DNA of 64,000 nucleotides from Eunapius fragilis. Taxonomy: Eukaryota > Porifera > Demospongiae > Spongillida > Spongillidae. The notes under the pieces were generated by a model. The model did not search any database and was not told the DNA's origin. It saw only the letters and a list, made by a program, of their open reading frames with translations. The stretch spans positions 11,554,739 through 11,618,738 of the forward strand of contig OY811975.1 of the NCBI GenBank assembly GCA_963681505.1, written 5' to 3'. Below, piece by piece: positions 8,112-63,866 of the stretch (position 1 is the stretch's first letter; every line of letters starts with the position of its first letter). The translations under genes were made by a program, and so were the position numbers.

Positions 8112-11100
8112 TTAGAACCTCCTGTAGTCTTGATATCGTGAAGGCTCTCTGACCACTCGTCCAGACCTGGTTTTGTACCCATTCTGTCTTGCAGCAGTTT
8201 CCTGTGGCTCTAGTCGGACTTCGACTTGAGGCTCCCTCCCTTGGTCCTTCACTCCCTCCTTTCCATTTCGTTCCTGTGTTGAAGCCGGAGCTTGACCTTC
8301 CATGTCAGGTCTGGGTACAGGTACATCTGAGGTCACACCAGGTACTGTCACAGGTTCTGTTGAGTTCCCCTCCTTCACCTCCGAGAGATCATCCTGCCCT
8401 TGACCATATTCCGTGGCCTCCCCTGGTGGCCAATTATAAGTCGGCTTCAGAAACCTCCTATTTCTCCGGAGTACCTGGCCATCCACATCCACTACGTATG
8501 ACCTGTCAGACAGCTTGTCTACACACATTCCGCGATTCCATTGCGTCTTTTTAGCCAACATGTCTTGGACCAATACAGGTTGTCCCACCTGCAGCGGAGG
8601 GTGATCTCTCCTGGTGTTTGTCCGGTCTTGAATCACTTCCTGCTGATGTACTTTTTTTCTCCACATGTCATCCTGTACCTCGGGCACCAGTTTGTCGGTC
8701 GCTATTGGAACAGCTCCCCTCGTCCTCCGAGCCAGGAACCTTTGACTTGGGCTGGAGTCTAATCCCACAGTAGGTGTATTGCGCCATTCCAATAGTGCCC
8801 AAAATGGATCTTTACTTCTTCTCAACAATTTTTTCGCTATCTTAACTGCCGATTCAGCCTTTCCGTTCGACTGACTATTGTAAGGTGAGGACATGGTGTG
8901 TTGAAATTCCCAGCCTTTTGCAAACTCCCTGAACTCCCTGGCTATGAACTGTGGCCCACCATCTGTTTGTACGGTCACTGGTATTCCATAACGTGAAAAC
9001 TGTTCTTTGATGGCGTCCACCACCACTGTAGCAAGGGTAGTTTTGAGAGCAGAAATTTCAAAGTAGTCAGTTAGGTAGTCCACAATAAGCAGAAAATCCT
9101 TGCCCTTGAATCTGAACAGATCAATTCCAACCTTTTCCCAAGGTTTCTGAGGGATATAGTGTGCCAAATGCTTCTCCTTAGGCATCGCTGGAGAGTCCAT
9201 TTCACAAACAGTGCATTGAGAGCACACTCTCTTTACATCTTCTGTCATTCCTGGCCAATACACTGAGTCCCTCGCTCTTCTCAATGTCGATTCAATACCT
9301 TGATGACTCGCATGCAGTCTTTGCAGTATCTGGCCTCTGAGTTCAAAGGGAACAACAACCTGCCCCCCCTTATAGATGATCCCATCTTGAACCGTCAAGC
9401 AGTCTCGAACGTTCCAGTATGGTCTTAACGGTAGGGACACCTGTGCAATGTTGGACGGCCATCCCTGACCAAGAACTCGTCTCAGTCCACATTGTTCAGG
9501 ATCCTGCAGTGCTGTTTTTTTTATGGCTTCCATTCTCTGGTCGCTAACAAAAACAAACTCCCGCTCCTTGGTACTCTCCACCTCCTGATTTTCAAGGCGA
9601 AAAACATCGTATTTCTCACACTCCTTTCCTGAGGACGATTCCACAGGAGCTCTGGACAACACGTCAGCCACCACTTGTAGTTTTCCCGGCACATACACCA
9701 CATCCAGGTCGTATCGCTGCAACTGTAACAGCATTCTCTGTAGTCGCCTAGGTGCAACTAAAATGGACTTCTTGGCAATCATCTCTAAGGGCTTGTGGTC
9801 CGTCTCAATTCTAACTCTCTTTCCATAGATGTATTGATCTAGTCGTTGGCAGGCGAAAACTATTGCCAGACACTCCAGCTCTAAAGCAACGTAATTCTTT
9901 TCGCTCTTTGTCAGCGATCGTGACACTGATGCTATAGGTCGCCCATCTTGTAACAAAGTGGCTCCAAGCCCCTCAGTGCTTGCATCACACTGAATAACGA
10001 TGGGTTTACGTACGTCGTAGAATGCTAACAGCTGATCATTGCTAATGAGAGTCTTCAGCTCTTCAAAGGCTGCATGTTCCTTGGTCCCCCACACAAATTC
10101 AGCATCTATTTCTGTTAAACGCCTCAAAGGCTCCGCCACTTTCGACAAATTCGGTAGAAACCTGGACAGATAATTGGACATTCCAAGGAAACGGCGCACT
10201 TCTTGAACAGTCTTTGGGACAGGCATGTCTTTCACCGCCTTTACTTTTGCCACATCTGGTTTAACTCCCTCTGCTGAGATTTGATGTCCAATGTACAGCA
10301 GTTCTGTCTGGTGCAGGCGCATCTTATCTTTGTTGAACTTTAAATTGACTTCCCGCGCCCTCTGAAGCAGCTTGAACAGTTTCTGATCGTGGTCCTGCCT
10401 GGCCATTGCCTCCGTTTCACCTACTCCAAACACTAGTGTATCATCTGCAACAACAGCTACACCTTCCAGCCCGTGTAGGACCCCCTGGAGTCTCCGCTGA
10501 AATTCCTCCGGAGCCGATGAAATTCCAAACGGCATTCTGAGCCAGCGATACTTGCGCTCGGCTCCCCAGAAAGTTGTCAAAAAGCTACTACTCTCACTTA
10601 ATTTTACTTGCAGGAACCCATCTTTGGCGTCAAGTAGACTAAACACTCTGGCTCCTTTCAACCGGGGTAGGACGTCGTCTAAAGTAGGAAGATGGAAGTG
10701 GTTTCGTCGGATCGCTTTGTTTAGATCCCGAGGGTCCAAACAGACACGAACAGACTTCTTATCAGGTTTCCACACTGTGGTAATGTTACTGATCCACTCT
10801 GTGGGCTGCTCCACAGCTGCAATAATCCCATTTTCCTCTAAAACTCTGAGCTTGTCCTCAACTGCTGCCCGCATGGTATGAGGTATCTTCCTTGGTCTAT
10901 TAAGCATTGGGGGCACTGCTGGGTCTAGGTCTATCTGGTATTCTCCGGGTAGGCACCCAACGCCACTGAAAACATCACCAAACTCCATCAAGACCTTCTC
11001 CTTTGTCAACGGGCTATGCTCCGCCACCAGATTCACTTTCTCCAACCTGTATGACAGTAGCTCCAACTGTAAACAGGTGTCCAAAGATATTAAGGTATGA

Positions 11101-12227
11101 TGCCTGGTCTTCAATACCTCGAACACCAGCTGCTTGCTTTTTCCTTCCTTGTCTTTCACAACTACTACACACAACCCCAGTGATCGTTTTACCGATCCAT
11201 CGTACATTGACAGTAAGGTTCTGCTGTCCTGTAACTTTGGTCTGCCTAACCTTACATAATCTTGGAAGGACATTACGTTGCAGGACGCAGCAGTATCCAG
11301 CTGAAAGGTCAACTTTATGCTCTTGCCGCTGGTCTGACACCAAAAGCTAGCTAGCAATTTTTTCCCCTTTTTCTCTACCTTGATCTGCAGTAATTCCTCT
11401 GTTTCCAACTCTTGGACCAACTGGGTTGGTCTGCTTCTCATCTTGCACCTCCTTGCAAAATGGTTGAGCCCATTACACTTGAGGCATCTTTGCCCAAACG
11501 CTGGACACTGGCGGGGTCGGTGGCTTCTTCCGCACTTCCCACATTCCTGCTCCTCCTTATCTCTCCTATCCAACTCGATACCTTCAGACCTTGACTCTTT
11601 ACCCTTGACTGGCACACCCCTGTTCCTCACCATGGCAACTTCATCCTCTTCGCGGTGTTCATCTTTGACTGCTGCTACTTGTTCGGACAGTTCCTTAGCC
11701 TCCCAACTCTGCAGATCAGCAGTCGTTGCCTCGATAGTTTGGCACATCTGAATAGCTTTTGCTAAATCCAATTTCTCTGTCTCAAAAAGTCTTCTTCTCA
11801 TGCGCTCACTGTCAATGCCCCTTATCAAAACATGCAGCATCAAATCTTCTTTCAGGTTCCCAAAGTCACAATCCTTGACTTGCTTACGCAGCTCTGACAC
11901 AAACTGATCTACGGTTCGGCCTGCCTGTTTCAGCTGAAAAAACTTGTCCCTGAGTACATGCTTACTGGTTCTTCGAGCACAGAGTGAGTCCAGCTTGGTC
12001 ATGACTCCCTCAAAACCTTTGTCTTCTCCCTCCGCGAACGTCAACGCCTCATACATATCGTTAATTCTAGGACCCACGACTCGCAAAAACAGGGCTAATT
12101 TCACCGCTGAGTCTGCCTTATCCTTTCCCAGCGCCGTCAAAAAGAGCGCGAACTCCTTTTTGAATCGTTGCCATTGCTCCGTGACATCTCCCTCGCCAAC
12201 CTGATCGGGAACTAAGTATTTCTCCAT
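8112..12227 (-). CDS. Gag-Pol polyprotein of Gypsy 1
   Basis: A single 1371-codon frame begins at 12227, 50 bp inside the upstream LTR. In order it shows a gag region, a Cys-rich knuckle region near residues 230-265 (CGKCGRSHRPRQC, then CLKCNGLNHFARRC), and an aspartic protease with FQLDTAAS (near 310). These are followed by a reverse transcriptase with VVADDTLVFG, RNase H (IQCDASTEGLGATLLQ), an integrase zinc-binding HHCC region, and the integrase core with NSQSNGKAESAVK. Gag and pol are fused in one frame. A charged tail follows the integrase. It is a mobile-element gene, not a host gene. Confidence 0.95.
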   Translation of the reverse strand: MEKYLVPDQVGEGDVTEQWQRFKKEFALFLTALGKDKADSAVKLALFLRVVGPRINDMYEALTFAEGEDKGFEGVMTKLDSLCARRTSKHVLRDKFFQLKQAGRTVDQFVSELRKQVKDCDFGNLKEDLMLHVLIRGIDSERMRRRLFETEKLDLAKAIQMCQTIEATTADLQSWEAKELSEQVAAVKDEHREEDEVAMVRNRGVPVKGKESRSEGIELDRRDKEEQECGKCGRSHRPRQCPAFGQRCLKCNGLNHFARRCKMRSRPTQLVQELETEELLQIKVEKKGKKLLASFWCQTSGKSIKLTFQLDTAASCNVMSFQDYVRLGRPKLQDSRTLLSMYDGSVKRSLGLCVVVVKDKEGKSKQLVFEVLKTRHHTLISLDTCLQLELLSYRLEKVNLVAEHSPLTKEKVLMEFGDVFSGVGCLPGEYQIDLDPAVPPMLNRPRKIPHTMRAAVEDKLRVLEENGIIAAVEQPTEWISNITTVWKPDKKSVRVCLDPRDLNKAIRRNHFHLPTLDDVLPRLKGARVFSLLDAKDGFLQVKLSESSSFLTTFWGAERKYRWLRMPFGISSAPEEFQRRLQGVLHGLEGVAVVADDTLVFGVGETEAMARQDHDQKLFKLLQRAREVNLKFNKDKMRLHQTELLYIGHQISAEGVKPDVAKVKAVKDMPVPKTVQEVRRFLGMSNYLSRFLPNLSKVAEPLRRLTEIDAEFVWGTKEHAAFEELKTLISNDQLLAFYDVRKPIVIQCDASTEGLGATLLQDGRPIASVSRSLTKSEKNYVALELECLAIVFACQRLDQYIYGKRVRIETDHKPLEMIAKKSILVAPRRLQRMLLQLQRYDLDVVYVPGKLQVVADVLSRAPVESSSGKECEKYDVFRLENQEVESTKEREFVFVSDQRMEAIKKTALQDPEQCGLRRVLGQGWPSNIAQVSLPLRPYWNVRDCLTVQDGIIYKGGQVVVPFELRGQILQRLHASHQGIESTLRRARDSVYWPGMTEDVKRVCSQCTVCEMDSPAMPKEKHLAHYIPQKPWEKVGIDLFRFKGKDFLLIVDYLTDYFEISALKTTLATVVVDAIKEQFSRYGIPVTVQTDGGPQFIAREFREFAKGWEFQHTMSSPYNSQSNGKAESAVKIAKKLLRRSKDPFWALLEWRNTPTVGLDSSPSQRFLARRTRGAVPIATDKLVPEVQDDMWRKKVHQQEVIQDRTNTRRDHPPLQVGQPVLVQDMLAKKTQWNRGMCVDKLSDRSYVVDVDGQVLRRNRRFLKPTYNWPPGEATEYGQGQDDLSEVKEGNSTEPVTVPGVTSDVPVPRPDMEGQAPASTQERNGKEGVKDQGREPQVEVRLEPQETAARQNGYKTRSGRVVREPSRYQDYRRF

Positions 12228-27228: not shown

Positions 27229-27720
27229 TTGGGGGGGGGGGGGGGGGGGGGGGGAAGGTGTCTGGAAATACAGTGGCATAGCCAGTAATTGCACGGGGGG
27301 GGGGGGGGGGGGGGTGTTTCTGGCCAAGGGTGCAGTAGGGGCCACACCCACTCCTGCTTCAGCTAGGGGATATGGGCCTGGCAGGGGTGGATATAGGATT
27401 TTCCAAAAGGAGGGGGGGGGGGGGGGTTAGACCCGCGATATGAAAAGCATGAGGAGGAGGGGGGTGCTGTCCGCTACAGGCCCAATACGAAAAGCAGGGG
27501 GTGCTGTACGCTCCGCTTTAGAACCTTTGCAACTTTATCATTATGAAGTCATGTAAGGACCGTTTTGATAGAGGCTGTTTGGAGTTCACGGAAAATCATG
27601 AAAACCTTGAAAAACTACTCACAAGGGTGATTTTGCTTGATACTGTCCCATATGTATACCGTATATTACGGGGGGAGCAGGGGGGGGACGGGGGGGGGGG
27701 GTTCCGGGCAATGCGGAAAC
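27229..27720 (+). repeat. Cluster of poly-G repeats
   Basis: Four G-runs (27231-27254, 27296-27314, 27410-27426, 27670-27701) are each preceded by degenerate CAGTGGC or CAGGGGTGGATATAGGATTT repeat starts. The AATACGAAAAGC / GATATGAAAAGC plus TGCTGT segments at 27436-27515 recur inverted at 42.06-42.2 kb. Confidence 0.65.
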
Positions 27721-28028
27721 AATGCTGGGTACGCCACTAATATGTCCCGGTGGTGACATAGTCTTGTACCCAGACTCAGTATGTATAACACTATTACCAA
27801 TAATGCTAGTAGGCAGGTATAACATATGCTCCAGGGGAGGATGTAACCAAATAGAAGCTTGTCCAGGATGAATTTATAAATGTCTGTTCTGGTGGTTGGG
27901 GAAGGGGGAATGAGGGAGGGTTAAGATCAATATAACGGGGGTGTATTGTGTCTGGGGGTTACGTTGTCATCTGTACGGGTATAATGGAGTAGCTAAAGGC
28001 TCACATTTGCAGATTCATACTTGTGGAG

Positions 28029-31000
28029 ATGGTGATGCCAGCCAGAATGATGAATTTGTGCTTGATAATGTCAGGCGATGTTGAAGAGAACCCTGGGCCT
28101 GGAATGAAAGGTATAAGGTCTATGCTAGTGCCCCAGTTAACTTGGCAGTGCATTAGAACTGCTGGATTCAGTGTGCAGTACTGAACATTTGAACAAAATA
28201 GCTACATTTTGCCATGACTGGAGGGTGATAGGCAGACGCCTAGTGGATCCCCAGGATGTTGAGGACATTGAGCGGGAAGGGCACAGTGAGCAAGAGAAGA
28301 GAGATAAACTGTTAGAAGTATGGTACAGAAGAAAAGGTTCTGGTGCCACCTACAGAGTTATGATGAAGGCATTTAATGACGTACAGAACCAACAAGCTGC
28401 TCAAATGGTGAAGGAATTACTTAGATCAGATAATTCACAAGGTACACTGTATGTCTAAACTGTATACATGTATTCATATATTTACAGATTGTGTGTAGAA
28501 CAGTCTTTTAACCCTGAAACAATTATTAACATGCCATAATATTTCTATTCATGGAAAATTTCATTTCTATTTATATTTTTTGTAGCTGCACTCAATGGAT
28601 TTATTCCTTCAGACACAAATGGCCCTCTAGTCATGTGACCACATTATTGTGGTTTGTGTCATATTTTATGTATGCAAGAAGAATATAGATGAAATGCTGA
28701 ATCATGGCTATAAGGATAGATTGTTAAAAATAAATAAATAAAATCAGGTCAGTTTACCTAGTTTGCTGCATGGTGTTGTATGAGTATTTGATCAAAAAAC
28801 TACAAAGTGTTGGTTGTGAATTATCGTTACAGTCATATAATGCAACTACAAGAACAAACTAAGACTTTTTTAGCTGTTTGCTACATTGTTAATTATTATT
28901 TGTGAGTACTGGTTGGGTGACTGCACTACTGTTTTGTTTCACTGCTTAGGAATGCCCCAAAGAGCAAAAAGCACCCCTACTTCAGGTTCATCACCTCCTT
29001 CAGGTTTGGTGCAGGTGTCATTAATGAATATAACAGTGTGTGCATGACAGGAAACAGTAGAATAGTTATATACCTACATGAACAAGAATATTCTCTTTTA
29101 TGCAAGAATTGATGTATGAGGATGTGCATCCTGTACATTGAGCAGATGCATGTATGTGCAATGTACTGCGTGGGGCAGGGAGCATCACTAACAATTTGTT
29201 TCTCTTAGGACTGCTTCAAAGAGCAATATCCGCTCCCTCGTCAATTGCATCGCCTCCTTCAGGTTTGGTGGAATCATTGACTAATAGTTTTGTACATGAC
29301 TGGATACACGAAGGTTATGAACAATGCAATATAATCTTCTTTTGTGCAAAATTTGTCTGAATTGGTTTGTCTTATACAATGAGCAGACTGAAGTTAATTT
29401 TAGAAAGGATTTTAGCTATTGTAATAGTTTTGAAAATTGTAGCACATTCAGGGGGGAGTGTAACTGATTCAGGTTTACTAATTCTTTAGTGCTTTAGTAA
29501 TGTTCAGAAAACCAGTTTTGAACTTTGATATCTCATTAATTATGAAGAAGCATCAACATGGCATCTCAATTGCACCCAAACAGTTGTTAATGACCTGGTA
29601 AGCAATGATGGCCCTTGTAGCAAGCCACTGGCAACACATTGTCTTGCTAAATGCCTTCAATAGACATAGCTGTAGCTACAGTATAGGTCAAAATAAACAT
29701 TACAGTTCATCTTTGTACTGCGATGGTCTCACAGTACGATTAAACAGAACTAACCAAAAACTATTTCTAAGATGAAGCCAACGATCGGCACCTTCATGTG
29801 TTAATAGTGTATGGAATGTACAGTTAAAACATCATGCTTGCCCTCACGCACCTTTGTTTTAATAAGCGTGCTAGACGATCCAAAAAAGGGAAGCCATATC
29901 TTCATCGCACCATTGTGATGAATTGTGATGTTTATTTTGACTGGTACTGTAGGTCACATGGTTGACTTAGACTATGAAGGGCCTTTAAAAACCTATAGGC
30001 ATTTTGGCTGGCAAACTCGTTATGTGTTTTTGAAGTAAAAAAAGTGATTGTCATTAAAAATGTTTCTGCTTTCAATGTTGAAGAAATTTTGTGCATTCTA
30101 TTTAATACAATAAAGCTACACAATTGCATCACTGTCTTCTGTTTGTGTGTTGATTACTAGGGATTATGGCCCATGACATTGATCTAAATGAAGAGGATGT
30201 GATTGGTAAGGGAGGACAAGCCCATGTGTTCAAAGCATTCTGGAAAACAAAGCAGATACCAGTGGCAGTGAAGGATGTTGGTGTGTTATCGAATGCTGCT
30301 AAACGAGAAGTATGCCAAATATGTTTTATTGATTCTGCATGTATATAAGACCATTCCTTTTTCCAGGTAGAAACACTGTGTTCTGTGAGGCATACAAATA
30401 TTGTGATATTTTATGGTGTGTACAATATTTCACCTCAAAGATTTGGTTTGGTACTAGGTAATACTACGCCAATGTACACTGTACTGTGCATTACAGTCAA
30501 TTTAACTTACACAAGAGCTTGCTGATACATCTTTGAATGAATATTTGAAAAGAAACCCTTTTAGTTTTGAGTCAAGTTTGAATTGGGCAGAGCAAGTTGG
30601 AAAAGGTATAGGCAGTTGTTGCTTCAAATGGACAATATTAGCACTGCTATTTGCCATAATGTAGGCATGCATTACCTGCACTTTGGCGCACCTGATCCGA
30701 TCATTCATGGTGATCTCAAGTCTCCAAATGGTATGTATTGTGGTATTAATGCACTTGCGCAGTGGTTAGCACAACAATTATTAACCACATGCAGTTCTTG
30801 TTTATTCTGACGGCGTGCTCAAAGTAAGAGATCGTAACTGATTTAAATTGCTTGAATTGGTTTTGAAGATTGCAGATTTTGGGAGTTCAAAATTTAAAGT
30901 TGGCCAACAATCTTCAGTGACTCGAATATCCATAGAATGGACTGCTCCTGAGGTTTTTACATGTACAAGCATTTAGTGTTGTGTTGATGCTGGTATGCAA

Positions 31001-34000
31001 ATTACAGTTGTTTGATAATGGAAAACACTCTATGGAATCAGATGTTTATGCCTTTGGCATTCTATTGTGGGAAATGGTGACTCACAAGGTACCATACGAA
31101 GGACTATCAAATACACAAGTCTTTTCGAGAGTCAATAAGAATGAGGTGCAGTGAATTAATATGTGGTGCATTTGATATTAAGGCCACTGTACTTTGCAGC
31201 GTCCAAACATTCCTTTTTGCCATGTAAGTCTGAGAGAAATTATTCAAATATGCTGGGATCATGAACCCAAGGTTAGTCAATATTGTAAAAAATGTCCTGC
31301 ACAATGCGATTTACAGGAGCGTAGGAACCTAAACACAGGATTGATGAGGGGGGGGGGGGGGGGTCAGAGGTGCGTCCAATATAAATTCAGTGTACTTTAT
31401 ATACATAATGCCCAAAATTGGGGGGGGGGGGGGGGGGGGGTCAAGATCCCCCTGTTTCTATGTGTAAATATGGGTCTATTTACATACATTGCAGCATGCG
31501 CTATGACACATGTTATATGGCGTTAGAGAGATTAAATAAAAAAATTGATGGTTTGATTATTGAGAGGTTTATCAGTCAGGTTCGGAATCGTAACATTACA
31601 AAAGTTATTTATGAAGCAAGGTGCCTTGTTCAAATGGCATTATATCACATGTATAGATGCCACCAAACTTTTTTTACAAAGTCCCACTGATCATTTGTCA
31701 AAATAGGGACCAATTGATTTTTTCATCATTACTATTATGGAAGGAAAATTATGTTTAGAGCTCAAAAAAATGTTTAACACTGGGTCCGTGAAAATAATAC
31801 TTTTTTCGCCTGATTTGTTGAACTCACTTTTTTGGAAAATTAGTCGAAAGGGTTTTAGTTGCCTCAAATACTGATTTTGCTAGAGTACAACTCTCCATAC
31901 AATGTTCTAGCGTTGTAACCACTTCTGCTCAGAAACCAGCATTTGTTTAGGCCGACAGGGTAAGACCTGCTACAGGAAATGGGGCACTTTTTTTTCCACA
32001 ACGTTTCTGCAGATAATTAATATGAACTAGCTCACCTGGTTAGTATTGTTAGGGTTTGATAAAATTCTGGCAATATCCTGTCATCCTAGTGACATACAAG
32101 AACTAAACTCTCTTATGTCTCAACTCCAGATCCTAATATTGGTCGTGCGCAGGCCCAGTATTGTTGGGTCCAGACCTGAGTCAATATGGACATTATGAGA
32201 CACTAGCATGATAAAGCTGTGAATCCAAGTAGTGGAATACTTAGTAGTAGCTTCGTTTTGCAAAACTCCAAGTTGCAGTCACATTAAAAAGTGAAGTAAA
32301 AATTATATACAACTAAGGCCATTTACATCTTGTAAAGAAGTCATCCGCTGCATAACTTCTCGTCGAAACTGTGTGGAAGTCCACATGTATTACATGAGGG
32401 ACAATTGTCACGTACCCAGACCTGCTAGTCCCCAGGCTGAAATCAATTACAGTCACCTGTTTCCATCTGGGCACGCGGCAAAAGCAGCTGCATGTGGGTT
32501 TTGTACACGAACTAAGCCAACTGAAGGCATAAAACTTGTTGTGGCCTTATATTCGTTGGAAAAGAACTTGAAATATGTATTAAAACTTGCGCAAAACGTC
32601 CTTGGAAAAAAGTGTCCTCGGCAACACTTTGACATTGATAAGTTTAGAGCCGTGTCACTTAGAATAGGTATAGCTTACGATCCTGTATAGGTACGAAGCA
32701 GGAAACAACGCCAAACACCTTGGTGATGATTGAACTATCTAAAAATATTCTTTTACCAGCCATTACTGTTTTCCGACTAGATTTCCCAAAGTTGGGGTTT
32801 GAAAAAAAAAAGATTTTCATGGACCCGGTGTTAATGATTAAGTCACAATTGGTCAAGTCCGTCTGACATAGATCAGTGTTTCCCCCAAAACGTGGCGCTT
32901 CAATTGCGCCAAAGCATGGCGCTTCAATAGCGCCACGCTTATGAATAAAGGTGATTACTAGGTGTTAAGTTAACTGGGTAGATAGGTGATAAAGATTTGT
33001 TTATGGGCAAAAATGATTACTTTTGTGGTATGTAAAAGCAAGTACATGTACAAGCTAAATACTAATTCTACGATGGTACATCTCACTCCAAATCTCAGCA
33101 GCTTTTACAAAATCAAAGTTTTCTAGTTCTCCACCTTCTAAAATAATTCTCATTATTTGGCATAGAGTGGAGGTGTTTAATCTATTTCTAAGATCAGTTT
33201 TTATTCGGTACATACAATCCAAAAGCATCTATTTCATCACACTCAGGAAAGTAGCTTTCAAACTTTGTCTGCATCATTTCAGTAAAGGAAGTTCTATCAG
33301 TGACAGACACCTTGATGGTATGATCTTTAAGTTCATGCTGAATGAATGCATCCACTTCACCAATAAATCAGCATCACGCAATGCAGATATTTGGTGTAAA
33401 GTAAACTGCAGCCCTGGACAAGTCAACATCCTCTCTTCGGAATATTAAGCTAAGATGGCTGATGTGAGGTAAAATTTGATTAAGAAAATGACAGCAAGCA
33501 ACAAAGGAATATGTTTTTACAAATTTAGCTAGTCTTACTGCTGTTGGTTGACTTCGTTCTGTACCTTGATGCTCTAAACTGACAATGAATGATGAAAGTG
33601 TTCGAAGTATGGACCCTATTGCAGCATCATACGAAGCCATCGAACATCTTTGCTTGCTTAAGCTTGATTATAGGATCATTTGAAATTTCCTGAATAGCAT
33701 GAAGTCCTGCCATCCTAACTGCACTATTATGATAGAACAGAAACAATGACTGTACTGTTTCCTTGAACCTTTTCAAATATGGTATGTTGTCAGCTGCATG
33801 AGCTGCAGCTAGGGCACGTCTATGATTGATGCAATGGACTGACACAAGACGTGGCTGAGCACCTTCAGTTGCGATGCTACTCCACTCACCTCCTACCATA
33901 ACTGCACAGCCATCACTTCCAAATGAGCGCAGATTTTTGATGTCAAGTCCATTTGTCTCCATAAAAGCAACTATAGCACCCTGAATAGTTTCCGCTGTAC

Positions 34001-35060
34001 CATCAGCAATGTCACCTATATGAAGAAATCATGTTTCAATTTTCCCGGATGGAAGGATGTATTTCGCTACAATAACTAGCTGCTTCAATACAGATATGGA
34101 TATGTCGGTTGATTCATCTGTCATTAAAGAAAAGAATGGACTGCACTTTAAGTTATCCAGTTTCTCACTTGCTAGGACTGATGAAAGGCACTGCAAAAAC
34201 TCGGCAACAATCCTTTTACTGGTGTAAGTGGCATTTCTTCGTATAGAAAGATCATTTAAGTATGAGCATCCAAGACTCTTCACCAATTTGACTAAAGATT
34301 CATATTGAGTTGTGATAGCATTGTCCTCCTTAGCCAACCAGTAGACAATCTTCAATGCACCTATGAGTGCTTCTCTATGAACCAGCGGTCCTTCTGTGCT
34401 TAGAGTCACACCAATTTTAGAAGCTGCTGAAAGATGCACCTTTGATTTTTTGTGTCGCTCAATGCAATCCTTGTGGAGGGATGTGCATGGTACAGTTGTC
34501 CAGATACCAGAACTGCTGCTCTCCTGTAATTTGCATATTTCACACAGAAGTCCTGTCATGATACCAGCTGTATCTTCAGTTGGAACTAACCAGGGATAGT
34601 CTTCTTTCCACGATTCCACGTCGATGAACAGTACCCTGTTTTATGACCTCCTTTGCCTCTACTTCGCTTGACCTCGTTGCCATTGCTATAACGCCTGAGC
34701 TATTATGCTATGTTGCCTGCTTATATAGTACTTAAAACGCGCTGAGGGGGGTTTTGTCGAGATATAATTAGAAACATTTAATGAGTAAGGTATATAAATA
34801 AAAATTTAAAGAAACCGCAGATGACAAAGCAACCAAGTGCTAATTAAATTCATAGCCCACACATTTATCACCTGGAATGCGCCACGCTATAGCATGGCGC
34901 TGAGGGAAACACTGTAGATAAAGTTTGATGTTCAATATATGGATAGCACTCATTTGGAATTCTTTATTACTAAAACTTGCAGAACCGACCATCATTCAAG
35001 GAAGTGCTAAGATTGTTAGAAGCTGCTAAAAGTGAGAAGCAGATGTTGTGCAATTGTTGA
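28029..35060 (+). CDS. 2A-like leader, Death domain and TKL-type protein kinase (13 exons)
   Basis: Exons by splice site and phase: 28029-28110, 28157-28441, 28950-29003, 29209-29262, 30161-30309, 30367-30457, 30516-30605, 30665-30730, 30795-30823, 30869-30952, 31008-31145, 31200-31271, 34983-35060. The total is 1272 nt, in frame to TGA (423 residues). Residues 8-24 read MNLCLIMSGDVEENPGP, a canonical 2A ribosome-skipping sequence. A Death domain follows (about 30-115: HLNKIATFCHDWRVIGRRL to YRVMMKAFNDVQNQQAAQMV), then two Ser/Pro linkers and a kinase (about 165-415). Kinase landmarks are GKGGQAHV (P-loop), VAVKDV (beta-3 Lys), REVETL (helix C Glu), HGDLKSPN, ADFGSS, APE, SDVYAFGILLWEMVT and CWDHEPKNRPS. 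HGD replaces HRD, so it is a non-RD kinase. Death plus kinase suggests cytosolic innate-immune or cell-death signalling (inference). The start ATG is the first of three in-frame ATGs; an upstream exon joined at AG 28011-28012 is possible. Confidence 0.85.
28050..28101 (+). promoter_or_regulatory. 2A-like translational recoding site
   Basis: The codons for GDVEENPGP match the D-(V/I)-E-x-N-P-G-P motif at which ribosomes skip the Gly-Pro bond. Here a 23-residue leader would separate from a product starting with Pro. The upstream residues (MMNLCLIM) are hydrophobic enough to act as a weak signal sequence. N-terminal 2A sequences that control targeting are known in sea-urchin NLR-type proteins; function here is inferred. 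Confidence 0.85.
28586..28638 (+). CDS. Candidate alternative terminal exon of the 2A-Death-kinase gene
   Basis: A strong acceptor (TTTTTTGTAG) at 28585 in the right phase opens a 17-codon tail ending in TGA. Spliced to the Death exon, it would give a 2A-leader plus Death-only protein of about 139 residues with no kinase. It could equally be a decoy acceptor in an intron. Confidence 0.35.
29263..30160. other. Intron 4 of the kinase gene
   Basis: 898 bp between the second linker exon and the first kinase exon. No other feature was recognised inside it. Confidence 0.6.
31345..31440 (+). repeat. Two poly-G tracts in the last intron
   Basis: G-runs at 31349-31363 and 31421-31440 separated by about 57 bp. 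The first is preceded by CACAGGATTGATGA, resembling the poly-G repeat family. Confidence 0.6.
31774..32834. mobile_element. TTAA-flanked DNA transposon in the kinase gene's last intron
   Basis: TTAA at 31774-31777 and 32831-32834 bounds a 1053-bp element with inverted ends CACTGGGTCCGTGAAAAT and, right side reverse-complemented, CACCGGGTCCATGAAAAT. TTAA targets fit piggyBac or Kolobok. The only internal frame (32373-32690, plus strand, 105 codons: SHLFPSGHAAKAAACGFC, then KKCPRQHFDIDKF) is not a transposase I recognise, so the element is probably non-autonomous. Confidence 0.75.
32874..34914 (-). mobile_element. hAT DNA transposon in the kinase gene's last intron
   Basis: The ends are inverted repeats CAGTGTTTCCCCCAAAACG and, right side reverse-complemented, CAGTGTTTCCCTCAGCGCC. 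Both are followed by GGCGC/GCGCC palindromic subterminal repeats. TAGAT occurs directly outside both ends (32869-32873 and 34915-34919), a 5-bp duplication rather than the 8 bp usual for hAT. The CAGTG...CACTG ends and the transposase inside support hAT. Confidence 0.85.
33060..34700 (-). pseudogene. hAT transposase (ZNF862/C17orf113-like, DUF4371), frameshifted
   Basis: On the minus strand, ESWKEDYPWLV, then GLLCEICKLQE and HKDCIERHKKSKVH, form a TTF/BED-like finger (34619-34440). The catalytic core then gives FFSLMTDESTDISISVLKQL (34140-34070), FGSDGCAVMVGG and VHCINHRRALAAAHAADNIP (33962-33780), and a C-terminal helical part (33640-33170). The start lies in another frame near 34690 (MATRSSEVEAKEV). 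At least three frame changes disrupt it. The dimerisation motif was not found. Confidence 0.75.
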
Positions 35061-46406: not shown

Positions 46407-49400
46407 ATTATCTGATACACAAGTTGCGTTCAGTGTAAGGCAGAAACGCCCTAAAACACTAGCAGAAGCAGTTGCTCTAACACTGGAAATGGAGTCGCTT
46501 GCCATAGCTTCAGGCGTGTCTCCGTGCAAAGAGAGCCCTAGGTTGTGTATGGCAGGTACTCAGCTAGACCACAACAAACATTAACGCCAGGGTTTGTTGA
46601 CCACTCTGCTACAGCGAATGGGAAAACTTGAAGACACGCTGGCCGAGGCACGCATGCATATGGGATCCGGGAAGAAAAGGAATGATGTACAGGAGGGACA
46701 CGCTCACAGTGCTACACCCGTGCTGCCTATTAATTCGTCATCTGCTTACAAGATTCCAGCATTCATCAACAACATTCGCGTTAATTTTCTACTGGACACT
46801 GGTGCTGCTGTCTCACTCATTCGTAGAGATGTGTGGGAACAGGTTAACGCGAAGAAACAGCAACAGCTAAGCCCGACCGGACATCACTTGGTGGGGGTAG
46901 ATGGGAGACCATTGAAGATTCTTGGAACTGCTCGAGTTGGCATCAGAATTGGACAGGAACTGTTTTCTGCAGACCTAATCATCTTGGAATCGCTCACAAC
47001 CGATGCTATATTTGGACTGGATTTTCTTCAAGCCAACCAGTGCATCATTGATACCCACAGTAAGCAGATACAGTTTGCTAACAGGAACATGAAGTTGCCA
47101 CTCAGTGTTGCCCTGAATGAAGCAGCTGCCCATGTCACATTGGGGACAACATTACATATACCACCCAGTAGTGAAATTGAAGTGATGGCAAAGGTACAGG
47201 AACCAGCACCATCTACAGGGACATGGATTGTGGAGGGTGCAGCAGCTACCCGTATGCCCATCAGGGTGGCGCATGGATTGGTACAGGTGCGTGGAGATGA
47301 AGTACCGGTGAGACTACTGAACCCATCAACGGAGCCCATTGTAATTCACAAAGGGACCTGGATTGCCACAATGGAACAGGTTCATCCAGCAGAACTCTCA
47401 TCTGTAAGAACTGCTATGCCAGCCAACGAACATTCAACACTGAGGGATTGTTTGTCAGAGAAGACTCGTGCAGCATTGTGCAAAGGTGTGGACAAGGTCT
47501 CACGGATGGCGAGAAAAATTCATTTCTCATGCTCCTTCAAGAGTATAGGGATGTCTTTGCTGTTAACAAGAATGACCTAGGCCGGACTAACAAACTGCAA
47601 CACTCTATCTCCACAGGAAATTCCCATCCCATTCGTCAACCGCTTCGACGTATTCCTGCTGCTAGGTGGGAGGAGGCAAGGAAGATGCTTGACGACATGC
47701 TTGATAAAAACATCATTCAGCCATCTGTTAGCCCTTGGGCATCTCCAGTGGTATTGGTTCCTAGGAAAGATGGCACACTTCGATTTTGTGTGGACTACCG
47801 GCAACTGAACTCGATCACCTCTAAATATGCGTATCCTCTCCCACGTATAGATGAAACATTAGACACCCTTGCTGGGTCAGTGTGGTTTACCACATTGGAC
47901 TTGATCAGTGGGTATTGGCAGGTGGAAGTCAAGCCAGAAGATTGTGAGAAAACAGCTTTCTGTACCAAAGATGGCCTCTTTGAGTTTAAAGTTATGCCCT
48001 TTGGCCTCTGTAATGCCCCAGCTACCTTCCAGCATCTTATGGATCTTGTTCTAGCAGGCATGCAGTGGTCGCAGTGTTTGGTCTCTTTGGATGACATCAT
48101 CATACCTGGTTGCAGTGTGAAAGAACACCTCAGGAATGTTGCAAGTGTTCTACAACGGCTTCGAGATGCTGGGTTAAAGCTTCAGCCAGCCAAATGCTCA
48201 TTTTTTCAAAAACAGGTGAAATACCTGGGACATATGATATCCGAAGAAGGAGTTGCTACAGACCCTACAAAGACAGAGAAGGTAAAACAGTGGCCAACAC
48301 CGTCGACAGCCGACGAGGTTCAGCAGTTTTTGGGATTGGCTAGTTATTACCGGCGCTTTATCCAGCACTTTTCAGAGATAGTGAAACCACTGCATCATCT
48401 CACCGAACGCAATGCAAAATTTCTTTGGACAGAAGAATGTGAACTGGCCTTCCAAGAACTCAAACGTCGCTAGATCACTGCCCCCATCTTATCATATCCA
48501 GACTTCTCCAAAGAATTTGTCCTGGACACAGATGCAAGCAACTTTGCACTGGGAGCTGTCCTGTCACAGGTTCAAAATGATGGATCTGAGAGGGTAATTG
48601 CATATGGTAGTCGCTTGATGACAAAGACAGAGAGAAGGTACTGTGCCACAAGGTGTGAACTTCTTTCTGTAGTCACCTTTGTGAAACAATTTCACCCTTA
48701 TCTGTTAGGTCACCACTTTAAGCTTCGGACGGACCATGGGTCCCTTGAATGGCTGAAAAACTTTAAAGAACCCGAAGGACAGTTAGCGCGCTGGTTGGAG
48801 AGACTTCAACAATATGATTTCACCATCATCCATCATCGAGGTCGAAAGCACTGTAATGCTGATGCAATGTCCCGGATACCCTGTTCACAGTGTGGCAGAA
48901 GTGAGACCAGTCTCAATGAAGAGGAATTGTCTTGCATCTCAATGGTGGTGGTAAGGCCTCAAAAGGTGGTGAATGCACTATGAGAAAGCTACAATTGGAG
49001 GATAGTGAGATTGGCCCACTCCTCTTGGCTATGGAGGCTGGAGTTAAGCCTGATCTCTCTACAGTTCAAGGCTATACTATAGAGGGCAGAAGACTATTCC
49101 AGCTGTGGGACCAGTTGTATGTGCATAAGGACATCCTATGGAGAAGGTTTGAGAACAAAGATGGAAGAGAAAGCATTGCGCAGTTGGTTGTCCCTAGAGT
49201 AGCCAGGGAGAATATTCTGAGTGAGATTCACAGCAGTTTAACTAGTGCACACTTAGGGAAACAGAAGACATTATCCCGGTTAAAAGAGCGATTTTATTGG
49301 CCTGGACATTACAATGATGTGACTGACTGGTGCAAGAGGTGTGTTGTCTGCTCAAGAAGGAAGAGCCCAGTGCCAAGGAATCAAGCTGCACTTCAACCTG

Positions 49401-50860
49401 TCAAGGCTGGTTATCCTCTCCAGATTGTGGCTACAGATATCCTCGGCCCTCTACCCAAAAGCAAGAATGGGAATGTGTATGTGCTGGTGGCGTCAGACTA
49501 CTTTACACGTTGGGCAGAGGCATATGCTATACCCAACCAGGAGGCTGAGACAGTTGCCAAGAAGCTGACCAATGAAATGTTTTGTCGGTTCTCTATACCT
49601 TAACAGCTACATTCCGACCAAGGTCGACAATTTGAATCCAAACTGATATCTGAAATGTGCAAAGTATTGAAGATCTGCAAAACACGTACCACACCATATC
49701 ACCCACAAGGTGATGGATTAGTTGAACGGTTCAACCGGACTCTGATAAGTATGTTGGCAACTGCTACTGCAGACCACTCACTGAACTGGGAGGAGTGTCT
49801 TCCTAAGGTGTGTTTTGCATATAACACTAGCGTTCAGGCCTCTACAGGACATACACCTTTCTACCTTATGTTTGGGAGGCAAGCCAAATTGCCGGTGGAC
49901 CTCATGTATGGCCTGGAGAATACACCAGAAGTCGAGCTCCCAGAGTACATAGCGAATTTGAAAAGAACATTTCAAAAGCATATGAAACTGCTTGGGAGCA
50001 TATTGGAGAAAAACAACAGTTCCAGAAGGAGCTGTATAACCAGAAAGTCCATGGATTACCATTTCGCATAGGAGACCTTGTCTGGTTATATGTTCCAGCA
50101 GTCAAAAAAGGAAGATCGAAGAAGTTGCATCTGCCATGGGATGGCCCATATAGGGTCATTAAGAGGCTTTCAGATGTTAACTATCGCATTCAGGCAACCA
50201 TTGGTCGTCGGAGACGTCTGGTCGTTCACTTCAACCGACTGAAGAAATGCTCATCCGTTGTGGAGGCACATGACAGTAGAACTGGAAATGAAGATTTATC
50301 GACTGATAAGAGACCACAGGAAGCAACTAAATTGCCTGTTCCATCAGACAGGGGACTTACGTTGGTGGATGATGATGAAGGGGATGAAATGGTGGCACCT
50401 CAAGGGGAGAGACATCCTGATGCTCAACCCCACAGACAGGAGGCAGTAGACCTTCCTCAGGACGAAAACATACGACCTCAAGAAATACAAGAGGAGTTAC
50501 TTCCTGATGCCCAACCCCCCAGACAGGAGGCAGTAGTCCCTCCTCAGGCAGCCTTCAACAATATTAAACAACGCTATCCTTCGAGAAATAGACACCCCCC
50601 AGATTATTTCTAATACTGGGGCGTATTCTTTCACAAAGGGGGGCTGTGTAGAGCTGGACATAATCAGAACATACTGTGCTAATCAGTTATGTGCTGCCAG
50701 GCAATTAGTCAGAACGATCTAGAACATTCTATGTTGTAGGTATATATATAGAGAGTGTAATCTTGTTGGAGCGTCTCTTGGTATGAATTCATGAACTACA
50801 TTACATTTCATTGATTTTTATTCATACCCGATTATGAGCCGTATAGCATGTTAAGTTATC
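46407..50860 (+). mobile_element. Gypsy (Ty3) LTR retrotransposon 2, broken
   Basis: Plus-strand parts in order: a gag remnant (to about 46.59 kb), protease with FLLDTGAAVSL (about 46.78 kb), and reverse transcriptase with FCVDYRQLNSITSKYAYPLP and the VSLDDII active site (47.7-48.2 kb). RNase H (48.5-48.9 kb), integrase with its zinc-binding and catalytic regions (49.2-50.0 kb), and a GPY/F-type C-terminus with a duplicated PDAQPxRQEAV segment (50.1-50.6 kb) follow. A purine tract (about 50.63-50.645 kb) leads into a putative 3' LTR starting near 50.645 kb (TGTAGAGCTGGAC), of uncertain end. No 5' LTR is present; the 5' end is cut off at the foldback element. The element carries a few breaks and is a fossil. 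Confidence 0.85.
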
Positions 50861-60048: not shown

Positions 60049-63000
60049 TCTTCCTTTCCTAATGTGTAACGAACATTCCATATCACTGAGGAGGATGAAT
60101 ACCAGCTCCTGTTCGAGATCGTGTCATTATCGGTTGTGTCTGTTGTACTTGCACTGGTTCTCTCTGCTGTCTCTGTTTCTTGCCTCTGCTATGTCACCTC
60201 TTCCTGGCCTGGTAATGTCACGGGGTTTTCTGGTATGATATTCAGATGTTGGCGATTGCGTCTTACCTGTCCCCCATCTTCAGTAATGACGATGTACGAG
60301 CGAGGCGTTGCAGCTTGCCCTATCACTCTGCATGGTGCTGGCTGATGTCTCTCATTTGTAATCCATACAGATGCATCAAATTTGTGGCAGAGACTGAGCC
60401 TTGTGCTGTCTATCAAAATTCATCTTGCTGTTCTTCTTCACCCTGTCATCTTGCATTCGGAACTCTTTTAAGTATGGCCACTTTGGCTTCAATTGATCTG
60501 GGAGGTTAGTACGCAGATTTCTTCCCATTAGCAGTTCCGCAGGTGAAAGTTTACACCTTGGCAAAGGAGTTGACTTATAGGAGCATGGCTAGTAAAGGAT
60601 CACTTGCCTTCCTCAATATGTTCTTGACAGTTTGCACTGATCTTTCAGCATGTCCATTGCTCCTGGGATGCTTGTCACATGCACAAAATTGTATTCCGCT
60701 GCAAACTTTACAAACAGTTCTGAAGAATACTGTGGGCCATTGTCAGAAACCAATGTTTCTGGAATGCCATGGCGCGAAAATATTGCCTTTGTTGCATCAA
60801 CGACACTTTTTGATGTGGTATCTCTTAGCTTCAACACTTCAGGGTAACGTGAATAATAGTCTGTGACAACAATATAACTTTCTCCTTTGAAGCTAAATAA
60901 GTCTGATGCAACTAGTTGCCAAGGGAATTCCGGCAATGGTGTAGGTATTAGTGGTTCTGGGTGGGGTACAACCTCCCTTGCACAGGTTGAACAACTGTGA
61001 ACAAGATCCTTAATCTGTTGTCCAATACCTGGCCACCAAACTGATATCCGAGCTCTTTCTTGACATCTAACAATTCCTTGGTGCCCCAGGTGCAGCTTCT
61101 TAAGAGTTTCTCTTTGAAGTACCTTTGGAACCACGACCCTTTTTCCATACAGCAGTAACTTTTTGTGAACTACCAGATCACCCTGTACATTCCAATATTG
61201 TTTTAAAGCAGGTTCATTTTTGTGTTTGTCTGGCCAACCCTGTTGAACGTGCTGTATAACCTTTGCACAAATGGGGTCATCCTGCTGTGCTTTGCAATAC
61301 ACTTGGAGTCTTTGTGGGCTGGCTGGAAGGTCTCTGACACACACCTCCATCGAATACTCAGTTTCAGCTTCATGTCTGATGTCTCCCTCTGTAAATGGTT
61401 CAGGGGCCTGAGATAAGGTGTTTGCAGTAAAAAGCATCTTCCCGGCAACATGACTAATGGTATATTCAAACCTTGCCATTCTCAGTCGAAACCTAAATAT
61501 CTGAGGTGGTAATTCGTCCAAATGTTTTGACCCAAATAAGGCAACAAGGGGCTTATGATCTGTTTCAACCATGAATCTCATACCAAGGACATAAGTAGAA
61601 AACTTTTCACATGCCCAAACACAAGCTAGTGCCTCTTTCTATATTTGGGCATAATTAGCTTCTGTGTCTGACAGGGAACGAGAAGCATATGCAACAGGTT
61701 TCCACACAGAATCATGCTTTTGCAAGAGTACGGCTCCCAACCCATGTGACGAGGCATCTCCTGATATCTTTGTTTCAGCATTAGGATCATAGATACATAG
61801 CACTGTTGGCTGGCCGAGTTCTTTCTTTATTTCATTAAATGCCTTATGCTGAACTTCAGTCCACTGCCACATGCGTGTTTTCTTTAGTAGCTCTCGCAAT
61901 GGCTGTGTGATATGGGCTAGATTGGGAGAAAATTTGCTCAATTGATTCACCATTCCAAGAAAGCGTCGCAGTTCAGGGATGGTTTTAGGTGGTTCAATGT
62001 TTTGAATAGCTGCAGTTTTGGCAGGGTCTGCTCGGATGCCTGTTTGATCAATAACATGACCTAGGAATTGCACTTGGGACATTGAAAAATTACACTTATC
62101 CTTATTAAGTGTAACTCCTGCTGACTGGACTCTTTTCAGGACCGCCATCAACCGTGTATCATGCTGGTCTTGGTCCTTGCCAAACACCAAAATATCATCT
62201 ATCTGGCAGACAACTCCCTCAATGCCCTCCAGAATGCGGCTCATGCGTTTTTGGAAGTGTTCTGGTGCACTGCTTATACCAAAAGGCATTTTGTTGAAAC
62301 AATACTGTCCATAGGGGGTGATAAATGTTGTTAACAGCTTTGACCCTTCTGACAGGGGGATCTGCCAAAATCCACTGTTGGCGTCCAATTTGCTGAATAT
62401 TCTTGCACCGGTAAGCAAGGCCAGGGTGTCATCCACCTTTGGTAGTGGATGTACCTACTTGAATTAAGATGCCTGAAATCCACACATATCCATTCTTTTT
62501 CGGAACAATAACCATGCCAGCACACCATGGTGAAGGAACATCTGATCACTCCTAACAATAGCATTCTATCAAGCTCCTGTCTAACTCTCTGGCGTAATGG
62601 AATCGGGATGTTCCTTGGGATGAAAAGTGCATATGGCCTAGCACCTGGTTGCAGACGGATATCAAAAGGTTCTCCAAGATTGCCAAGTCCTTCAAAGAGT
62701 GCTGGGAACTTGTCCACTACCGATGCTACACTAACTGCTTCCAATCTAGCGACTAGTTTCAGTGCCATGATGGCTGGAAGACCCAACAAATTAGTCCGAA
62801 GTCCTGCCACAACAAAAATGGTTTCAATACTCTCTCTTCCATTGTGAGATACTTTGCCACTAAACTGCCCTATGACCCTTAAAGGGTATCGTCCCGGTCC
62901 ATATAACTTTCTTCCAGCTTTTTCCAACTGTGGCTTGTTTATCTCCCTGTAGCTCTTTTCAGATATTGCGGTGACCTCTGCACCAGTGTCCACTTTGAAA

Positions 63001-63866
63001 CTCAAGTTTTCCCCTTCAACCTTCACCTTGATTGTCCAGGACGTTTCACTTGCCAATGACAAAGTATCCAGAAACACAGGGCTGAGATCACTTTGCTGAG
63101 GCGAAACATCTTCCAGTACTTTAGATAAGCAGCAGTTGCTAAAATGACCCTTCCGATGACATCTATGGCATGTAGCCTTTCTAGCTGGACATTCACTAAA
63201 AGGGTGTTGTTCCCTGCCACATCTTGAACACTTCTTACCCTGCTGCCTCTGTCTGGTTGACCTTTCACATGTCTTTTACTGCCTGATGCTTCATCCAGTG
63301 TGACATCTTCCATCCCTTTCAGAACTTTTTGCTGTTTTTGAACTGCTTCCTGTTGTCTCACTATCCTCTTAGCTTTTTCCAAAGTAAGGTCTGGGTCAAG
63401 CTGAAGTCTATTCGACAAGGTTTCGTCTCTGATGCCAACGACAATTCTATCTCGTATCATTTCTGCTGTTAACGCACCGTAATCACAATTTTCTGTCAAT
63501 TTATACAGCTCCATTATGTATGTGTCTATCGGCTCACCTTCATGCTGGCATCGACGATTAAATCGCGCTCTCTCAAAAATGACGTTTCTTCTCACCTTGA
63601 AAAACGCGTCCAGTTTCTCAACAACCTTTTGGTACACCTTTCGCTCGTCAGAGGTTATGTTGGTCGATGCAAGAACTGATGACGCACCTTCGCCCATACA
63701 ATAGAGTAGCGTATTAACCTGTTTTTCATTCGATTCCTTGGCAAGGCCAGCTGCCTCACAAAACTGGTTAAACCTAGCTAGCCACTGAGACCAGTCGTCC
63801 GGCGTTTGAAAGTTGAATGGGTCTGGTGGTTTCAACAAAACCTGTGCCATTCCAACGCTGCCACCA

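Follow-up and report, generated by a model that had tools for sequence, protein, structure and literature searches.

A Death-domain kinase gene with a predicted 2A leader is one of many 2A-led Death genes across the genome of the freshwater sponge Eunapius fragilis

Results and Discussion

A predicted 2A leader on a Death-domain kinase

Within a 64,000-nt stretch of contig C5 (chromosome 5) of the freshwater sponge Eunapius fragilis (C5:11554739-11618738, hereafter the window; the genome comprises 218.9 Mb in 24 contigs), 13 exons on the forward strand (28029-35060) form a single frame of 423 codons in which a 2A (StopGo) core, a Death domain and a protein kinase follow one another. We read this gene, the Death-kinase, as encoding a MAP3K-like kinase that has a Death domain and, at its N-terminus, a 2A leader by which two products are made, and put the probability of that reading at roughly two in three. 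The Death-kinase is one member of a set of 2A-led Death genes that spans the genome, because the genome holds 29 such cores, all preceded by Ser-Gly and 23 of them with a Death exon nearby, and because the partners further downstream include a kinase, NACHT domains and COR-like regions.

According to the proposed mechanism, the ribosome would make a 23-residue leader ending in NPG, after which the Gly-Pro bond would fail in a fraction of passes, the leader being released while translation continues into a 400-residue, Pro-initiated Death-kinase. The remaining passes would give a leader-Death-kinase fusion, and by analogy with known 2A leaders both forms should come from one message. Once skipped, the Death-kinase would stay in the cytosol, where its Death domain could mediate assembly, and the N-terminus of the fusion would be blocked or redirected. 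The leader exon itself would be a shared first-exon module, linked by a phase-1 intron to the Death exons of many genes (kinase, NACHT and COR-like). The gene is probably transcribed and its core probably skips; the skipped and fused products presumably differ in place or activity, and the role may be innate immune.

The core GDVEENPGP is encoded at 28074-28100 (+), in frame with the Death domain and the kinase. On base composition, D[VIM]ExNPGP is expected about 7e-5 times in 64 kb, counting both strands, and the six frames of the window contain one further NPGP, at 47364 (-), which is not part of a 2A core. The leader comprises residues 1-23 and the predicted downstream product starts at Pro24; the context immediately upstream of the core, CLIMSG, is Leu-rich and ends in SG. 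The ATG at 28029 has a G at both -3 and +4, and an in-frame TAG is located 5' of it at 27990.

Pfam identifies a Death domain at residues 38-114 of the 423-residue protein (24.7 bits, cut-off 22.6) and a protein kinase at residues 170-409 (180.1 bits, above cut-off), and no NACHT domain. The VAVK lysine, the catalytic Asp (DLKSPN), DFG and APE are all present, with HGD in the place of HRD; with the first three of these residues or motifs retained, the kinase is predicted to be active. Comparison of a 418-residue version of the protein with solved chains, taken over the best 60 of 2,478 matches, gave MAP3K20 'MLT' as the best single-domain match (175.8 bits), followed by an ancestral Src-Abl kinase (126.5), MAP3K12 (125.0), CTR1 (123.3) and MAP3K9 (122.3 bits), while the chain listed at the top is an EGFR construct whose score is made up from two stretches. 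The initial annotation had described an exact GDVEENPGP core at the N-terminus, a Death domain joined to a TKL-like kinase, and 13 exons forming one 423-codon frame with the last join spanning a 3.7-kb intron. All of this holds: the core is in frame, both domains exceed their cut-offs with MAP3K20 closest, and each of the 12 introns has GT-AG ends and compatible phases, the last being 3,711 nt in length.

A genome-wide set of 2A cores

Searching the genome for D[V/I]ExNPGP returned 29 sites, against approximately 0.25 expected from base composition and 0 in a reversed control, which rules out a chance origin for the core of the Death-kinase. Ser-Gly precedes the core at every one of the 29, although the search pattern did not require it. 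A second pattern, in which the core was partly relaxed and Gly together with a Ser-, Thr-, Cys- or similar codon was required before it, recovered the identical 29 sites, all of which read SGD[VI]ExNPGP. A wider core pattern added two sites, NVEENPGP before a Death exon on C21 and GVEPNPGP on C18; the latter was set aside as chance-like, since about 3 such sites were expected and the control gave 5.

A profile search located a Death exon within 1.2 kb 3' of the core at 23 of the 29 sites. The profile was built from six exons, those of the window (L021) and of L007, L015, L018, L019 and L022, which match by construction; furthermore, the Death exon of L008 is identical to that of L007 and that of L020 is nearly identical to the window copy. 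Pfam's own Death model places a match 87-135 nt behind at least 8 of the 29 cores, a lower bound because the count was taken from 12 of 150 Death matches that were chosen by eye near 2A sites. Taken on its own, the L018 Death exon is not recognized by Pfam; over 77 residues it shares 42% identity with the L005 exon, one that Pfam does recognize as Death. The Death domain of the Death-kinase is 37-52% identical to ten Death exons from other 2A loci. As the loci are paralogues, a binomial figure calculated as though they were independent does not represent a true probability.

An in-frame, phase-1 GT-AG join of the 2A exon to the Death exon is possible at 23 of 23 loci (a permissive scan, made without a control), with a donor positioned 10-19 nt past the core in 22 of these. 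At L015 the usual donor is missing and there is a later donor only, giving a 42-nt intron, with straight read-through also possible; the Death exon at this locus contains a stop. At L036 (G000:C1:21256400-21266399) the Death exon is found 6.5 kb behind the core, with an insert in between. This insert carries open frames of 422, 673 and 675 residues and is virus-like or transposon-like in appearance. These observations strengthen the view that the leader recurs as a first-exon module across Death genes of Eunapius fragilis.

What follows the Death exon varies. A kinase is found at two C5 loci, whereas NACHT is found at five C3 loci, one C1 locus and one C5 locus (7.8 kb). Of the 53 NACHT matches in the genome, at least 8 follow a same-strand core at a distance of 1.6-7.8 kb, the 8 having been chosen by eye and therefore representing a lower bound. 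Two near-identical C2 loci have a COR-A-like region (27.8 bits against a Pfam cut-off of 35.3, one locus tested) as well as a second Death-like exon, and at C7 the region behind the Death exon gave no Pfam match. At L003 (C1) a NACHT is present and a Death exon was not found. We refer to NACHT genes and not to full NLRs, because a crude count of leucine-rich repeat motifs behind NACHT, taken over six loci, yielded 2 matches, each containing stops, compared with 1 in the control. Neither Death nor NACHT was found in the sequence read at L004, L016, L017 and L030, the sequence read being 1.5 kb on each side for the seven loci L025-L031 on C12, C13 and C22.

The possibility that these are retrotransposon or viral 2A sequences was considered and rejected. 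Four loci showed neither Death nor NACHT. Pfam analysis of 9 of the 15 frames of at least 105 residues listed for three of them (the fourth, L030, being read for 1.5 kb on each side only) revealed no reverse transcriptase and one Helitron domain, situated 8 kb behind its core. Likewise, no reverse transcriptase was seen among the Pfam-checked frames behind the other cores, which did not amount to a systematic scan.

Two further features of these loci can be recorded. Three families share a start reading MGVD..YR.R(I/V)G.F, or nearly so, 5' of the core (L004, L006-L012, L025-L029 and L031), mostly at a distance of 280-470 nt; where start and core are in one frame, this puts 92-115 residues ahead of the core. 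A longer upstream product may be encoded in families B, C and D, for which three examples (two from family C, one from D) gave no Pfam match above cut-off. A start of this kind was not found in the window. Additionally, in family C the Death exons of L049 and L036 are followed by Cys-containing regions that resemble each other, in frames of 285 and 309 residues, respectively, of which the L049 copy gave no Pfam match.

Retention and loss of the core

In family C taken together with altered copies (16 loci), the ten codons of Ser-Gly plus core show a proportion of nonsynonymous differences (pN) of 0.056 and of synonymous differences (pS) of 0.344, compared with 0.313 and 0.467 in the 14 codons 5' of them. 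In this best-sampled family the core is held against amino-acid change and the leader drifts. Leaving out the altered copies gives a core pN of 0.022 across 12 loci, in a set that is then chosen by its core, as were the other families. Core and leader pN are 0.000 and 0.372 in family B (3 loci), and 0.070 and 0.456 in family F (3 loci).

Other results weigh against the proposed reading of the Death-kinase, and we take them together with the alternatives that they favor. In family D (6 loci) the core pN of 0.023 and leader pN of 0.000 rest on small counts and provide no contrast, and family G (2 loci; 0.000 and 0.069) has too few changes. A census of the Death class gave 82 matches, the best 36 of which were examined for cores. 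An intact core was present within 1.2 kb for 20 and at 6.5 kb for one, 5 have an altered or broken core, and 10 have none in approximately 300 bp read upstream, a distance that could miss farther leaders given that the spacing between leader and Death exon is 196, 509 and 896 nt in three intact cases. Hence the 2A module is both kept and lost. The altered cores (L053-L055, L057 and L058), each before a Death exon of the same class, are NVEENPGP on C21, ENSGP at two C1 loci (Ser for the first Pro of NPGP), ENPRP on C12 (Arg for Gly) and a broken remnant on C7.

Moreover, just 16 residues precede the core of the Death-kinase, and their hydropathy is unremarkable, the best 9-residue value being reached by 14.8% of 1,373 ATG-started 16-mers from the window. 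In the same test the corresponding values for other leaders are 16.0% for L005, 2.0% for L018 and 1.2% for L007. The case for localization control by a signal-like leader is weak for the Death-kinase gene. The short leader, the related genes with an altered or missing core and the lack of constraint between the two C5 copies (see below) would all suit an explanation in which the core is translated but skips poorly, the leader acting for the most part as a plain N-terminal extension of the kinase, or as a weak signal or anchor on it, and the 2A being a leftover of a duplicated Death module. However, the canonical core of the Death-kinase is intact, the core of family C is kept against non-silent change and Ser-Gly is present at 29 of 29 sites, and we regard poor skipping as unlikely.

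The two C5 copies are the Death-kinase and a near-identical paralogue 95 kb upstream at C5:11487895 (L032, G000:C5:11487000-11496999, with L052), whose leader exon is identical and whose splice dinucleotides are kept. The paralogue is a pseudogene: an in-frame stop interrupts its exon 2, and its exon 7 has a 1-nt deletion. Exons 1-12 of the pair differ by 1.2% and the introns by 1.4%, and the 14 exon substitutions comprise 6 silent changes, 7 amino-acid changes and 1 stop; since exon and intron divergence are alike, the pair shows no sign of selection, which is a further point against the reading. A broken paralogue and similar divergence of exons and introns are what would be seen if the locus had recently duplicated and were decaying, with the intact window copy a chance survivor. 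Against this, the 423-codon frame is open over all 13 exons, with splice sites kept and kinase motifs intact, making such a history very improbable.

Finally, the exon chain is predicted from DNA. Together with the death of the paralogue, this leaves room for a Death-kinase that is read from some other first exon, exon 1 being a relic outside the main transcript. Yet the same arrangement, in which a phase-1 intron separates a 2A exon from a Death exon, is seen at 23 of the 29 loci, some with quite different Death exons, and an idle leader exon is improbable. We therefore retain the reading of a 2A-led Death-kinase with two predicted products.

Relationship to known systems

IRAK and Pelle proteins have a Death domain followed by a kinase. 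The Death-kinase shares this order, but its kinase is nearest to that of MAP3K20, and neither IRAK nor RIPK is among the best 60 of the 2,478 solved matches. MAP3K20 (ZAK/MLT) in turn shares the kinase domain, whereas 2A and Death at the N-terminus are found only in the sponge gene; ZAK has a C-terminal zipper and SAM domain.

The closest parallel is provided by the 2A-like leaders of the sea-urchin SpNLR genes, as described by Roulston et al. 2016 (PMC4981915), where the SpNLR2A6 leader recodes at approximately 80% in vitro and a non-recoding mutant goes mainly to the Golgi. Both animals have N-terminal D[V/I]ExNPGP leaders before Death-domain innate immune genes (in the sponge, probable ones), with NACHT members in each, and the N-terminal position before a Death-domain gene is seen in the Death-kinase as well. 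The parallel with sea-urchin 2A-led NLR genes drawn in the initial annotation is supported. The sponge differs in that the partner here is a kinase and elsewhere COR-like or other regions, in that some families have 92-115 residues before the core, in the absence of marked hydrophobicity from the Death-kinase leader, and in being known from sequence. The earlier interpretation, an immune adaptor-kinase whose leader controls release or localization, is supported in part, for a 2A core that shares its frame with a Death domain and TKL kinase and for the sea-urchin precedent. Release and the immune role are presumptive, and the localization component fares poorly on the hydropathy of this leader.

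A 2A survey (PMC12846837) describes StopGo as largely viral and rarely cellular, and distinguishes an upstream class that is Leu-rich and SG-ending with D at p12 from other 2A classes. The sponge leaders share the core octapeptide, the Leu-rich, SG-ending context and the D at p12 with this class, but here the 2A is the first exon of a cellular gene and is not internal to a polyprotein. NVEENPGP, the altered core on C21, belongs to the expanded core set of that viral survey. Death-NACHT genes such as those of the Eunapius fragilis set are expanded in sponges, as with the NLRD genes of Dysidea avara (PMC12909245); in that text 'signal peptide' and words beginning 'ribosome' each occur 0 times, '2A' itself being too short to search.

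An N-terminal 2A on Death-type immune genes is already known from sea urchin, and 2A as such is old. Among the literature matches listed, we found no earlier report of 2A in sponges, of a kinase partner or of a module spread over several architectures in one genome, although Rao et al. 2025, by its title a survey of eukaryotic 2As, could list some. The words 'sponge', 'Porifera' and 'Amphimedon' are absent from four 2A papers, and a sponge paper containing the word '2a-like' proved unrelated.

With 29 cores, mostly directly before Death exons of several architectures, recoding would count among the usual ways in which immune-type genes are expressed in a phylum that branched early among animals. 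For what skipping does, ready comparisons are offered by the naturally varied leaders and the altered-core copies, and the question of origin, common ancestry with the sea-urchin 2A-led NLRs versus separate capture, becomes testable. A bolder and rather doubtful proposal is that the pairing of a 2A leader with a Death domain forms an ancient immune module of animals, predating the sponge-bilaterian split. StopGo would then have been put to a cellular, non-viral use, retained as a translational switch and passed by shuffling to NACHT sensors, COR-like proteins and kinases.

Gene model and other features of the window

Exon 1 of the Death-kinase (28029-28110, all exons on the + strand) encodes the leader MVMPARMMNLCLIMSG, the 2A core DVEENPGP and GMK, and ends at a phase-1 donor, AAAG|GTATAA. 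Exon 2 (28157-28441) encodes the Death domain (LLDSVCSTEHLNKIA..., PF00531). Its acceptor, gcattag|AACTGC at 28157 (423 residues), replaced an initial start at 28172 (418 residues); the residues gained show homology to the (P)LDSQCS with which other Death exons begin. An additional exon near 28586 was excluded, as the frame runs into a stop and a good donor was not seen. Exons 3 (28950-29003) and 4 (29209-29262) are similar linkers of 54 nt, each phase 1-1, the former Ser/Pro/Thr-rich. The kinase N-lobe is encoded by exons 5 (30161-30309, with the Gly-rich loop and VAVK lysine) and 6 (30367-30457), and the hinge region (LELAD) by exon 7 (30516-30605), which has the 1-nt deletion in the paralogue. 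Exon 8 (30665-30730) contains the catalytic loop IIHGDLKSPN, exon 9 (30795-30823) continues the kinase, exon 10 (30869-30952) contains DFG and APE, and exons 11 (31008-31145) and 12 (31200-31271) encode the C-lobe. Exon 13 (34983-35060) supplies NRPSFKEVL, the end of the protein and the stop codon.

Intron 12 (31272-34982, +) has GT-AG ends that are kept in the paralogue. It contains a DNA transposon at 32875-34914, presumably hAT-like (a label we assign without a family search), with a broken transposase-like frame on the - strand, inverted ends CAGTGTTTCCC and a 5-bp target duplication, TAGAT. L032 represents the empty site for this element and has its own insert of approximately 4.2 kb in intron 12. 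Long poly-G runs occur within the intron (31348-31363 and 31420-31440) and just 5' of the gene (27231-27254, 27295-27314 and 27412-27426). Elsewhere in the window, long frames at 8112-12227, 46594-50613 and 60613-63850 resemble, by their motifs and without a family search, long terminal repeat retrotransposon polyproteins.

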